Part shown: piece after piece, positions 33,717-37,680 of the stretch
How positions within the stretch are numbered: the first letter of the stretch is position 1
Layout: each line of letters begins with the position of its first letter
Source: Acinetobacter sp. ANC 4169
Lineage (GTDB): Bacteria > Pseudomonadota > Gammaproteobacteria > Pseudomonadales > Moraxellaceae
NCBI RefSeq assembly: GCF_002135355.1
Contig: NZ_NEGE01000007.1
Location: 1-64,000 of the forward strand
Reading direction: 5' to 3'
DNA: 64,000 nucleotides
Made by a program: the position numbers and the translations under genes
Notes under the pieces: model-generated
Databases searched by the model: none
The model's input: the letters and a program-made list of their open reading frames with translations, nothing else
Told to the model about the DNA's origin: nothing

Positions 33717-35420
33717 TCACCCCGCCACTTTATTCTTGCCATTTTCTTTGGCCTGAAACAAAGACTTATCGGCTTTTTCCAGTAATGCCATCCAGGATGC
33801 TGCCCCTACCGCAACGCCAGCACTGACAGAAACATGAATATTCTGGTTCAGTTCAGCGATATACAGTTCAGAACCGCCAATCTCTTTAAGAATTTTATTT
33901 GCAACACCCCAAGCCTCATCAAAAGTAGTTTGCTCAATTAAAACCAAAAATTCATCACCACCATAACGTACAATTAAATCTGAAGTTCTAACATTAAATT
34001 GCAATTTTTCTGCAATCAGCTTAATCACCTCGTCACCCACAATATGCCCAAAAGTATCATTCACATGCTTAAAGTCATCTACATCGAAAATGATTAGGCC
34101 GGTTTGTTTCAATTGATTCGGCTTATTTTCCAGATAACGGATATATTCATCTAAAGCTAAACGGTTAGATACACCCGTCAAATTATCCGTATTGGCAATA
34201 TTTCTGAGCTGAAATTCCAGCGCATCCCGCTGCTGTAGCACGCGCTTTAATTCTTTAAGGGCATTCAATAAGCTGACTGGCTCTGCAGATAATGGTTCCC
34301 GTTCGGTCTCTATAACCTGATGCTGGGCCAGCCGAAGAATGGTATTTCTGGCTTTAATTAAAGGTATAAAAACATGATTGCGCGCATGGATCATGGTAAA
34401 AATAACCGTTACCAGACAAATCAGCGCCACCAATAAAATTAAAATCAATTTTTGCTGGGCTTGTTTCTTCTGGGTTTGAGCCACCGTAACACTGTAATCC
34501 AGAATATAGCGTTGTAGATCGACCACTGTTACAAATTTATCAACCATTGCCTCGGTGAGTTGCGTACCGGTCAATGAATAGGCCTGATTGTGTATACTTT
34601 CATTCATCAGGCGAGCAACGATTGGAATGCCTTGGTCTAAAAATTGTGTTTTTACTTGCTGATGCAAAGCTAGATATTCTGGAGTTTTATCCTGTTCGGG
34701 CTGTATGGTATTCACTAAAGCCCATAAATAATGGGCCTGATGTTGTGTCTGTAACGACCGCGCCAAGTTATCTTCAGGGATTTGTTCATTAAAAGTCACT
34801 GCTGCCATAATATTCGATGCAGTTCGACCCGCCTGATCGCGCAAATCAGCCAAAATTAAAATCAGTGTATAGTAGTCCGAAACTGAAGTTCCTTTAGCTT
34901 CAGAATGTACCAATACATTTTCTATAATTCCCTTACAGCTGTCCCACGCCTTAAACATGTGCTGAATCGCCTGATCCAGCTGCCTTGCACTCCGTTCAGA
35001 TCGAGGCAAGGCACCATAAGCATCGACCGCATTACGACCTTGTGCCAGAGCTGCTTTTAACTGGGAAGATAATGCCTGCGCCTGACCAGTAAAGCCCGCG
35101 GCAGCTAAAATTGCACGGGTTTGCTCAATCTGCAAATCAACTTCTTTTCGATAGATCTTTAATTCTTTTAAATTTGCTTCAAGTTCATCGACATTACTCG
35201 ACATCACCTTATTGGCCGGTGCCCGTTCCCGGGAAACCTTATTGGCTAAATCTGCCACCGCACGAAGCGCAGAAATTTCAGTTAAAGCCTGGTCCGCTTT
35301 TTGATAGCTGTGATAACTACTGACAATTAAAGGAACAGATAAAAATAGAAGAGACAGGATGATAATCATCATTGACCAGAACAGTCGCTGGCTGATATGT
35401 TCCGAGCGTAATTTATACAT
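33717..35420 (-). CDS. Membrane diguanylate cyclase (GGDEF)
   Basis: A 567-aa protein. TM1 lies at about residues 13-33, a helical periplasmic sensor at about 35-320, and TM2 at about 322-345; a short HAMP-like linker and the GGDEF domain follow to the end. The active site YGGDEF (487-491) is intact, and the inhibitory I-site RTSD lies exactly five residues before it (478-481), so product feedback is expected. It makes c-di-GMP. No EAL domain. The signal it senses is unknown. Confidence 0.92.
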   Translation of the reverse strand: MYKLRSEHISQRLFWSMMIIILSLLFLSVPLIVSSYHSYQKADQALTEISALRAVADLANKVSRERAPANKVMSSNVDELEANLKELKIYRKEVDLQIEQTRAILAAAGFTGQAQALSSQLKAALAQGRNAVDAYGALPRSERSARQLDQAIQHMFKAWDSCKGIIENVLVHSEAKGTSVSDYYTLILILADLRDQAGRTASNIMAAVTFNEQIPEDNLARSLQTQHQAHYLWALVNTIQPEQDKTPEYLALHQQVKTQFLDQGIPIVARLMNESIHNQAYSLTGTQLTEAMVDKFVTVVDLQRYILDYSVTVAQTQKKQAQQKLILILLVALICLVTVIFTMIHARNHVFIPLIKARNTILRLAQHQVIETEREPLSAEPVSLLNALKELKRVLQQRDALEFQLRNIANTDNLTGVSNRLALDEYIRYLENKPNQLKQTGLIIFDVDDFKHVNDTFGHIVGDEVIKLIAEKLQFNVRTSDLIVRYGGDEFLVLIEQTTFDEAWGVANKILKEIGGSELYIAELNQNIHVSVSAGVAVGAASWMALLEKADKSLFQAKENGKNKVAG

Positions 35421-35893
35421 AAATTACTGACACCCCAGACAAACCAAATATCCCATCATCGTGACAATCATATTTAAATTATAAATAGATATTTTACATG
35501 ATTATTACGCAAAATAAGTTAAAATTTAATCAATTTTTTTTAATATTCTCGTCTTATCAAACATTTATCCCATTTTCTTTATCATGTTAAAAATGACGCC
35601 CATTCTTAAATTTAGATTTAAGACACAGCCTATACCTACATGGCTGCAGCTAAAGCCCCATGCTTTTCACCATGGCAATTGAAAACTTCGTAAATGGTAA
35701 ATTGCAGCAGCATAATTATGCCACTCCAGTAAAATAATCCTGATTAATTTCAAAAATTTCGATCCAATAATGAAGTCTTGTTTCTAATAAATCCCACAAA
35801 TTTATGTTGATAAATTACCTACCAACTTAAATATTATTCCAAATGAGATAAGAAAATATTTACACATGCTACAAATAGGTGCATAATGCACCG

Positions 35894-35990
35894 CATTAGG
35901 GCAAATTAAATATATTCCTCAGCAGATTTTTTAATTTTCCCGAAGATTTTGGCGAAAAACCCCAGTTTTCTTTGAAAATTGGGGTTTTTT
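35894..35990 (+). ncRNA. Candidate small RNA (plus strand)
   Basis: Promoter TTTACA (35859-35864), 17-bp spacer, CATAAT (35882-35887). About 100 nt downstream is a strong terminator, AACCCCAGTTTTC / AAAATTGGGGTT with TTTG loop and T tract (35955-35990). No open frame with a ribosome binding site lies between. The start is estimated. Confidence 0.45.
35955..35990 (+). terminator. Orphan Rho-independent terminator
   Basis: Stem CCCCAGTTTTC / AAAATTGGGG, loop TTTG, then TTTTTT. More than 500 bp from any annotated gene end, so it must serve an unannotated transcript. Confidence 0.75.
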
Positions 35991-36187
35991 ATGGGTGAAG
36001 CTTAATAAACACTCTAAAAATAACCATGTTTTTGCACCATATTTGTGCATGAAAATTTTATCTATGATGGGCTTTTAAAAATTACGATCTCATGGCTAAA
36101 AATAAACTTTAGCTATCGTTTATTATTTTCCATTTCAATTACTGGTTTTGTTTGATCTCAAAAGCCACTGAAATATTTTTTTTAAAC

Positions 36188-36290
36188 AAAAAAAAACCCA
36201 ACCTTGGGGAAAGTTGGGCATATAAAAACAAAAACTTGTTTATGGAGAATCAGATCATCATCACATTATTTCAATGTAGTATGAATTGAT
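36188..36290 (-). ncRNA. Candidate small RNA (minus strand)
   Basis: Read on the minus strand: promoter TTTACT (36325-36320), 17-bp spacer, CATAAT (36302-36297). About 100 nt later the stem CCCAACTT / AAGGTTGGG is followed by nine T (36188-36218). It converges with the plus-strand candidate and points away from the porin gene. No coding frame with a ribosome binding site. Confidence 0.45.
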
Positions 36291-36732
36291 AGATATATTA
36301 TGTTAAAAATATTAAAATAAGTAAAGCCTATTAAAGCACTATGATTTTAAATTCATCACAATAATGAAATATTTATGTTAAATAAATCACAAAATAAAAA
36401 AATCTAGCGGTTGTTTTTTAAACGAAAAATCACTTTTATGTGGTTTTTATTGTTGGAGTCGAGTGAATATTTAAAATTCAATGGATAGTTCACATAATAA
36501 AAACACATTTAAATTGAATTTTACGATAATTAATAGAATATTAATCTAATTTTACATTGTAAAACATCTACTGATTTTGCTTCTTGCTAAAAAGATAATT
36601 TCTAAAAATTCTCATATTTATTTGTTATGAAAACATTTTTTTTAAGTTTATATAAAAAAAATTCATTTGTATGTTTTTTGTACGTAAAAAATTTAGAGTA
36701 AAAGCTAAATAAAATAATGTCCTTTTAGTTCA

Positions 36733-36760
36733 TTGACTTAATGTTTTGTTACAATACAAT
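36733..36760 (+). promoter_or_regulatory. Strong promoter of the Omp33-36 porin gene
   Basis: TTGACT (36733-36738), 16-bp spacer, TACAAT (36755-36760). It leaves a 5' leader of about 35 nt before the ATG at 36802. Confidence 0.7.
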
Positions 36761-36801
36761 GCTTACTGTTTAATCCATTTTTAATAGAACTGGTAATTAT
36801 T

Positions 36802-37680
36802 ATGAAAAAACTCGGTTTAGCCACTGCTTTATTATTAGCCATGACCGGTGCGCAAGCATATCAAGTAGAAGTACAAGGTCAATCTGAGTATATCGACAAT
36901 ACAGTAAATGACAAAAACTTTACTGGTGCTGTACAAGGTACTTATTACTTCAAAAATGTTGACTCTTCTAAAGGTCCATTGGCTGAAGCAGCGTTTTTAA
37001 ACCAGGCGTCTAATGCTTCTTTAGCATATAACTATGGCGAATACGACGTAGACGCTGAAGGCGATGATTTCGTTTCTCATACTATTGGTGCTAAAGCTGA
37101 AGCTTACGTTCCAACTAAAGTTGTTCCTGTATATGCGAGCGCTTCTTACAGCAACACAATTACTGACAACAAAAATGGCCTAGCAGATGACCATGGCGAT
37201 CGCTATGCCGTAGAACTTGGTGCTGTAGTTGTACCTAACTTCTTGGTTGCTGTTGGTTATACTAGCGCACCTAACCAAGATTCTTATGATGCTTTCAACA
37301 TCCTTGCTAATGGTGTTGTTAAAGCTGCTCAAGAACAACAAACTATTGGTCGTGACCAAGATGCAATCACTGCACGTACTAAATACGTGGGTGCTATCGA
37401 CGGTACAAACATGTCAATCGGTTTCGAAACTAACATGTTATTCGCTGAAAGCAATGCTTACGGTTTAAAAACTGATTTATATTTAAACCCGCAATTAAGC
37501 GTAGGCGGTTCTTATGCTGAAGCTGGCGGTGCTAATAACCGTAAAGCTTGGGGTGCTAACGTAAACTACTTCATCACTCCAGCAATTGCTGTTGGTGCTG
37601 ACTACGTTAATGCTAACGCTGAAAACGGTTCAAAATTTGACACTGAAACTGTTGGTGTTAATGCTAAATTCCGCTTCTAA
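36802..37680 (+). CDS. Outer membrane porin, Omp33-36 family
   Basis: A 292-aa protein. The signal peptide MKKLGLATALLLAMTGAQA is followed by a beta-barrel rich in alternating aromatic strands, ending in Phe (VNAKFRF) as expected for BAM-inserted porins. The start YQVEVQGQSEYIDNTVNDKNFTG and the middle ITARTKYVGAIDGTNMSIGF match the Acinetobacter Omp33-36 (Omp34) water/solute porin, associated in A. baumannii with carbapenem uptake and virulence. Codon use is strongly biased toward GCT, GGT and AAC, as in highly expressed genes. Terminator at 37701-37728. Confidence 0.92.
   Translation: MKKLGLATALLLAMTGAQAYQVEVQGQSEYIDNTVNDKNFTGAVQGTYYFKNVDSSKGPLAEAAFLNQASNASLAYNYGEYDVDAEGDDFVSHTIGAKAEAYVPTKVVPVYASASYSNTITDNKNGLADDHGDRYAVELGAVVVPNFLVAVGYTSAPNQDSYDAFNILANGVVKAAQEQQTIGRDQDAITARTKYVGAIDGTNMSIGFETNMLFAESNAYGLKTDLYLNPQLSVGGSYAEAGGANNRKAWGANVNYFITPAIAVGADYVNANAENGSKFDTETVGVNAKFRF

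Follow-up and report, generated by a model that had tools for sequence, protein, structure and literature searches.

The gap between the porin Omp33-36 gene and a GGDEF-domain gene of Acinetobacter sp. ANC 4169 probably holds two small-RNA (sRNA) genes, and the one on the plus strand would be repressed by phosphorylated NtrC under nitrogen limitation through a DNA loop. Both RNAs are conserved in sequence and structure across much of the genus. Three NtrC-type palindromes, here called sites A, B and C, lie at the plus RNA with conserved spacing and helical phasing; the genome encodes NtrC, and the same motif is found upstream of glnA.

Two candidate sRNA genes face each other upstream of the porin gene

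The gap spans positions 35421-36801 of the window, i.e., the stretch of 64,000 nucleotides that was analysed, which belongs to a 3.23-Mb genome in 33 contigs (G000). It measures 1381 bp and is free of any listed open reading frame of at least 50 amino acids, in agreement with the 1.4-kb gene-free gap of a preliminary description of this DNA. That description had also placed two promoter/terminator pairs in the gap, one on each strand, and both are found exactly there (Table 1). The RNAs converge, as proposed, and their lengths would be similar, about 98 and 103 nt if transcription starts 7 nt past the -10 element. A motif scan alone stays at chance level for promoter-like sites (16 vs 13.0 +/- 4.7 in shuffled sequences) and returns four terminator-like sites (vs 1.5 +/- 1.3), the plus-strand terminator lying outside these four; it is conservation that raises the promoter/terminator pairs above chance. 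Closer to the porin gene, TTGACT-N16-TACAAT at 36733-36760 (+) is likely to be the porin promoter and looks conserved in five loci.

Rfam 15, run over the whole window, yielded only two tRNAs at or above the gathering cut-off. Within the gap there were weak matches alone, all far under the cut-off (Spot_42, 22 bits; PyrR, 22.9; NsiR1, 16-17; rliE, 27, with the lowest E value, 0.065). The Spot 42 match (RF00021) covers the plus RNA of the window over its full length, at 22 bits against a cut-off of 80 bits, and Spot_42 is absent among 14 weak Rfam matches in the loci of 20 relatives.

Table 1. Features of the gap and its neighbours, in positions of the window
Feature	Position	Strand	Basis
GGDEF-domain gene (neighbour)	33717..35420	-	TIGR00254, PF00990
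Plus RNA promoter, TTTACA (35859-35864)-N17-CATAAT (35882-35887)	35859..35887	+	scan, conservation
Site A, NtrC-type palindrome TGCTACAAATAGGTGCA, 2 mismatches to TGCACYNNNNNRGTGCA	35867..35883		pattern match
Site B, NtrC-type palindrome TGCACCGCATTAGGGCA, 1 mismatch to TGCACYNNNNNRGTGCA	35887..35903		pattern match
Plus RNA, ~98 nt, start inferred from -10	35894..35991	+	covariance matches, covariation, fold z
Plus RNA hairpin 1, loop with UUCCUCAGCAG at 35915-35925	35899..35941	+	covariation, fold, loop identity
Plus RNA Rho-independent terminator hairpin and T run	35954..35990	+	fold; covarying stem
Site C, NtrC-type palindrome TGCACCATATTTGTGCA, 1 mismatch to TGCACYNNNNNRGTGCA	36033..36049		pattern match
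Minus RNA terminator, near-invariant CTTTCCCCAAGG (36213-36202), covarying stem, nine T	36188..36219	-	alignment, covariation
Minus RNA, ~103 nt, start inferred, 5' part variable	36188..36290	-	blastn, alignment, fold
Minus RNA promoter, TTTACT (36325-36320)-N17-CATAAT (36302-36297)	36297..36325	-	scan; conservation
Porin Omp33-36 (neighbour)	36802..37680	+	NF033382, 505.7 bits, cut-off 400

The plus RNA contains no ATG. Its 5' end, CAUUAGGGC, is followed by hairpin 1, a conserved UUUUGGC and the terminator. With blastn, positions 35850-36010 find a match in 78 of the 149 genus genomes, and most of these matches stop close to the plus terminator. A covariance search across Acinetobacter, which the preliminary description had called for, recovered the RNA widely: the model, built from 47 distinct sequences, has hits with E values up to 0.001 in 101 of 175 genus genomes, and 95 of the 175 carry one match each of at least 64 bits. 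These 95 are the genomes in which the plus RNA is counted as present; the remaining matches listed all fall below 48 bits, many of them being the palindromic plus terminator read backwards. Among 49 plus-RNA loci (the window and 48 relatives), mean pairwise identity reaches 0.95 in the -35 element, 0.94 in the -10 element, 0.96 in the loop and 0.77 in the terminator, against 0.37 in the upstream flank and 0.35 in the other.

The structure of the plus RNA is conserved as well. Its fold energy has a z-score of -4.18, with none of 200 shuffles as good, and covariation exceeds that of shuffled alignments on all five measures; 95.3% of cells are paired, compared with 87.8% in shuffles, two-sided changes are seen in 14 of 22 pairs, and the cells with such changes number 88 (24.4 in shuffles). 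Scores are far lower when the pairing is shifted by 1-3 columns. Two-sided changes occur in nine of the 15 stem pairs of the terminator among relatives and in five of the seven pairs of hairpin 1, whose loop UUCCUCAGCAG is nearly invariant while its stem varies. This loop is likely the seed of the RNA, which displays several hallmarks of an Hfq-type base-pairing sRNA: a promoter of its own, a U-tailed Rho-independent terminator and a conserved unpaired loop. Of 72 porin loci, 49 have the plus RNA upstream of the porin gene and 23 lack it, a distribution that requires three changes on a quick tree of the 72 porin genes. The nearest divergent gene beside it is GGDEF-like in 25 of the 49 plus-RNA loci, the window among these, and in 21 it carries an STFK motif and looks like a class D (OXA) beta-lactamase gene; sites A and B fall in the region between this gene and the RNA. 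One OXA-like gene that was checked (L062:2064-2915, minus strand) scores 334 bits against NF012161 (cut-off 250).

On the opposite strand, a blastn search at E 0.001 with positions 36170-36340 finds 106 of 149 genus genomes; many of its weaker matches comprise the terminator only, and some are second copies elsewhere in the genome. The terminator consists of a hairpin at 36219-36197 followed by nine T at 36196-36188, and its core is unique in its own genome at three mismatches. A terminator of the form TTT(C/T)CCCAA...T6 is present on the minus strand upstream of the porin gene in 69 of 73 porin loci (72 loci besides the window; in one of the four without it, the available upstream sequence is only 176 nt long). 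It is preceded by TTTAC-N16-20-NATAAT in 68 of the 69 and lies 497-629 nt from the porin start in 67. The 5' part of the minus RNA evolves fast, and the terminator hairpin is its sole near-invariant portion. The fold z-score is -2.43, with four of 200 shuffles as good, and covariation surpasses shuffles on four of five measures: the terminator stem has 15 cells with two-sided changes against 2.8 in shuffles, and pair types, at 9 vs 8.5, stay within the range of shuffles (218 of 500). In ten genomes (L145-L154) the minus RNA occupies the same position, with the porin gene on one side and a GGDEF-type gene on the other; nine of these loci contain no NtrC-type site at two mismatches, and the tenth has one within the porin gene. 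A plasmid collection queried with the minus RNA gave no match.

Hairpins of this kind also occur elsewhere. A CCCC-loop terminator hairpin much like that of the minus RNA is located 3' of a tRNA-Cys gene in another genome (L156, ~1568, minus strand), and further matches to this type of hairpin appear on other contigs of several genomes, some of the contigs being small. The terminator loop of the minus RNA is a possible seed. The minus RNA is at most one more sRNA of a known sort, and may be among the listed Art sRNAs of Acinetobacter baumannii AB5075.

Conservation and covariation, both read from sequence, back the prediction of two independent RNAs of about 100 nt, each with a promoter of its own. 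The near-identity of the promoters noted in the preliminary description is real (TTTACA/TTTACT-N17-CATAAT), but it carries slight weight as the sign of a functional pair and fails as proof of one, because the RNAs are unlike in sequence, structure, distribution and control.

NtrC-type sites and their spacing

The three NtrC-type sites at the plus RNA are new relative to the preliminary description. They were located with the pattern TGCACYNNNNNRGTGCA; the consensus given in the available part of PMC8743547 is TGCACCAnnnTGGTGCA. Sites A and B span the -10 element and the start of the plus RNA promoter, B lying over the end of the -10 element and the predicted start. Two half sites make up the palindrome that covers the plus -10 element. 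In all 95 plus-RNA genomes (from 30 and 65 plus-RNA loci) the distance between A and B is exactly 20 bp. Allowing up to two mismatches, site A is present in 85, site B in 86 and site C in 87 of the 95, site C being missing or weak (more than two mismatches) in eight, and eight flanking windows per genome, taken as a control, contained a match in 2 of 760 cases. Conservation of A and B is not independent evidence, since they overlap the plus promoter and the RNA start. In 23 porin loci that lack the plus RNA and have enough upstream sequence, no such site occurs up to 1700 nt upstream of the porin gene.

Site C lies 146 bp downstream of site B in the window. Across the 87 genomes, B-C spacing falls at 133-137 bp (19 genomes), 143-147 bp (58) and 156-160 bp (8), with single cases at 127 and 168 bp and none at 138-142 or 148-155 bp; the clusters centre near 135, 146 and 158 bp, which puts roughly one helical turn between neighbours. 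Phase concentration reaches R 0.83 at the best period, 11.5 bp. As a control, site C and the minus terminator lie 45-328 bp apart, with R 0.23 (77 genomes). The phasing of the 17 distinct B-C spacings was matched once in 20,000 random draws from 127-168 bp, in a test that ignores kinship and whose null grid is coarser than the data grid. On a quick gene tree of 72 porin genes, with site C accepted at up to three mismatches, the spacing class changed at least seven times, and steps of about one turn therefore arose several times. This phasing suggests that proteins bound at B and C are in contact across a loop. Moreover, as phase is kept between B and C and not between C and the minus terminator, site C belongs to the plus promoter rather than to the minus RNA.

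Identity of the factor and sign of control

Several observations point toward NtrC as the factor. The genome encodes NtrC (745 bits, cut-off 558.6). We examined glnA in 30 genomes, of which 18 have the plus RNA and 12 lack a strong match: a sigma54 promoter stands at about -76 in all 30, an NtrC-type site with at most two mismatches lies upstream of -60 in 27 and near -240 in 26, and none was found within the glnA coding sequence. In the genome of the window, the glnA leader contains a one-mismatch site and ntrB has one 222 nt upstream; another site, ~500 nt from glnK behind another open reading frame, may be due to chance. Genome-wide, one-mismatch sites are not enriched (18 vs 19 for the reversed pattern), and single matches consequently mean little.

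Further features were seen around these motifs. In the glnA upstream regions of L315-L344 (~420 nt) the leader holds an additional NtrC-type site in many genomes, and a conserved GGTGCATTT...CAGTATAAT stretch is sigma70-promoter-like, an arrangement that resembles E. coli glnAp1/p2. A perfect NtrC-type site (G000:C5:118021-118037; L134) lies in the intergenic region between two genes that look like those for a transhydrogenase and an EamA-type transporter.

With regard to sign, a conserved sigma54 promoter was not found near the RNAs: sigma54-like matches are scattered, in 7 of 49 loci at two mismatches and in 9 of 49 at one mismatch, six of the latter on the GGDEF side and three on the porin side. 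The six GGDEF-side matches share a similar sequence ~470-520 nt upstream of the plus RNA and were discarded as promoters; they fall within the OXA-like frame and were taken as coding sequence. Sites A and B cover a sigma70-type -10 element and start with no conserved sigma54 promoter, which makes repression the simplest reading. The sequence traits of the NtrC-repressed sigma70 class are present (sites over the core promoter, an NtrC gene, the glnA motif), and the sigma54 promoter at a fixed place that marks NtrC-activated sigma54 genes was not found. In this regard, the available part of PMC3870243 describes repression by E. coli NtrC of glnAp1 and apparently of glnLp, and that of PMC8092317 describes repression by NtrC of the sRNA EsrF.

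Search for pairing partners

Duplex energies were compared with those of dinucleotide-shuffled RNAs, accessibility being ignored. The preliminary description had proposed the porin 5' leader as a target, and prediction against it gave no excess pairing for either RNA: mean z was -0.71 over 47 sequences for the plus RNA (lowest -2.47) and +0.77 over 58 sequences for the minus RNA, the values in the window being -1.68 and +0.83, and that of the porin leader with the 5'-terminal 67 nt of this RNA in its plus-strand form +1.19. Mutual regulation fared no better, with a mean z of +0.46 for the plus-minus duplex over 46 species (+0.60 in the window), and in the window the GGDEF leader gave +0.17 with the plus and +1.08 with the minus RNA. 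As partners, porin leader, GGDEF leader and sister RNA find no support in these duplex energies, no pairing beyond shuffled RNAs being found. Leaders of nitrogen genes, set against the 5'-terminal 67 nt of the plus RNA, gave z of -0.65 (glnA), -1.44 (glnK) and +0.38 (ntrB).

If the UUCCUCAGCAG loop acts as a seed, CUGCUGAGGAA-like target sites are predicted near start codons. The pattern TGCTGAGG-N2-18-ATG has 25 matches in the genome against 7 for the reversed pattern, overlaps counted. Two leaders picked by this seed search both reach z -2.87 with the plus RNA, namely that of a GNAT gene (12 contiguous pairs) and gatB (11 pairs, one G-U). The GNAT gene, the best match to the seed, was rejected as a target, as TGCTGAGG before it is kept in none of 28 relatives' loci.

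Alternative explanations

The view of the preliminary description, in which the convergent RNAs regulate Omp33-36 or each other, finds support in synteny, given the narrow range of distances between minus terminator and porin start and the plus RNA upstream of most porin genes. Its weakness is that complementarity does not go beyond that of shuffled RNAs, in a duplex test that ignores accessibility, and that the plus RNA is missing from 23 of the 72 porin loci; we regard it as very unlikely. Of even slighter probability is the view that the sites mainly serve the divergent gene, often a class D beta-lactamase, the RNA being a by-product or leader-like remnant. An OXA-like neighbour in 21 of 49 loci (one gene checked) and the placement of A and B between neighbour and RNA agree with it; yet sites and RNA are kept in the 25 loci with a GGDEF-like neighbour, site C is on the far side of the plus RNA, and the loop and stems of that RNA are conserved in their own right. 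The gap might also hold conserved promoters and terminators that insulate the porin region transcriptionally and yield no functional RNA, and the highly variable 5' part of the minus RNA, with the terminator as its main conserved part, is consistent with this, as is the similar hairpin 3' of tRNA-Cys in another genome. Against such insulation stand the nearly invariant plus RNA loop, which is outside the terminator, the covariation of hairpin 1 in five of seven pairs, and the minus RNA's own promoter in 68 of 69 loci, so that we deem it improbable.

A further reading keeps the sRNA genes as described and assigns the sites to a different factor whose motif resembles that of NtrC, or has NtrC activate, the input then being something other than repression under nitrogen limitation. 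The genome-wide motif count equals its control, and NtrC binding is a prediction from the motif. The same motif upstream of glnA, together with a sigma54 promoter, and upstream of ntrB argues against another factor, and activation is at odds with A and B covering a sigma70-type -10 element and start where no conserved sigma54 promoter was found. We consider this reading unlikely, and repression by NtrC of the plus RNA the probable one. As a whole, the interpretation in the preliminary description is partly supported: the two RNAs are supported, and their proposed roles at the porin and on each other found no support.

Proposed model and relation to known systems

The findings presented here allow a model of how the plus RNA may respond to nitrogen. 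It would be a trans-acting, base-pairing sRNA, possibly used with Hfq, expressed from a sigma70-type promoter. When nitrogen is limiting, phosphorylated NtrC would occupy A and B, blocking the -10 element and the start, and also site C, 13-15 helical turns downstream; proteins at A/B and C would then join, and the resulting DNA loop would shut the plus promoter. In nitrogen-rich cells NtrC would be inactive and the plus RNA made, its UUCCUCAGCAG loop pairing with the Shine-Dalgarno regions of the mRNAs that it targets. As for the minus RNA, it would be a further sRNA, driven by its own promoter and free of NtrC sites, the conserved terminator hairpin forming its fixed core. We give an even chance to the fuller claim that the plus RNA is a nitrogen-status sRNA on which NtrC acts purely as a loop-forming sigma70 repressor, through two core-promoter operators and a phased third one placed whole turns downstream (mostly 13, 14 or 15).

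Known systems share parts of this arrangement. According to the available part of the report on EsrF of E. coli O157:H7 (PMC8092317), NtrC represses that sRNA directly and high ammonium raises it; EsrF differs in having a single NtrC site, located from -106 to -89, and in lying within the glnALG operon. The plus RNA, likened to EsrF by description only, has a pair of sites over the core promoter and a third, phased one downstream. At glnAp1/glnLp of E. coli, as described in the accessible text of PMC3870243, NtrC likewise controls a sigma70 promoter negatively by nitrogen status; those promoters drive glnA and ntrBC, whereas the plus promoter drives an sRNA and has a phased third site, with no sigma54 promoter found beside it. 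Within the genus, Aar of A. baumannii (PMC11472050, in part) is similarly an sRNA of about 100 nt that pairs through a short seed, and the Art/ABUWs sRNAs of A. baumannii (PMC5320573, Table 1, in part) were likened by description only; the minus RNA may be one of them.

Literature searches combining Acinetobacter with NtrC, Hfq or Omp33 and sRNA, insofar as their texts were available, had neither RNA among the matches listed; those for Acinetobacter, NtrC and sRNA had no Acinetobacter title among the matches listed, and the matches listed for the loop strings were all unrelated by title. The words "sRNA" and "small RNA" are absent from the main text of a 2026 paper on A. baumannii NtrC. An sRNA under NtrC repression is already reported with EsrF, and the phased three-site operator of the plus RNA appears to be the new element.

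Control by sRNAs in Acinetobacter is a young field: in A. baumannii AB5075, 98 Hfq-linked sRNAs have been detected, few of them with validated targets, as stated in the available part of PMC12802169. The operators described here provide natural loop lengths about one turn apart, which makes NtrC-mediated looping at a sigma70 promoter open to experiment in E. coli K-12. If the model is true, they would constitute a natural phased-loop series for an enhancer-binding protein at a place that lacks a sigma54 promoter, and the plus RNA would be an RNA arm of the nitrogen response in Acinetobacter, of which there was none among the literature matches listed. An sRNA spread over the genus with a readable input would offer a direct way into the link between nitrogen status and post-transcriptional control.
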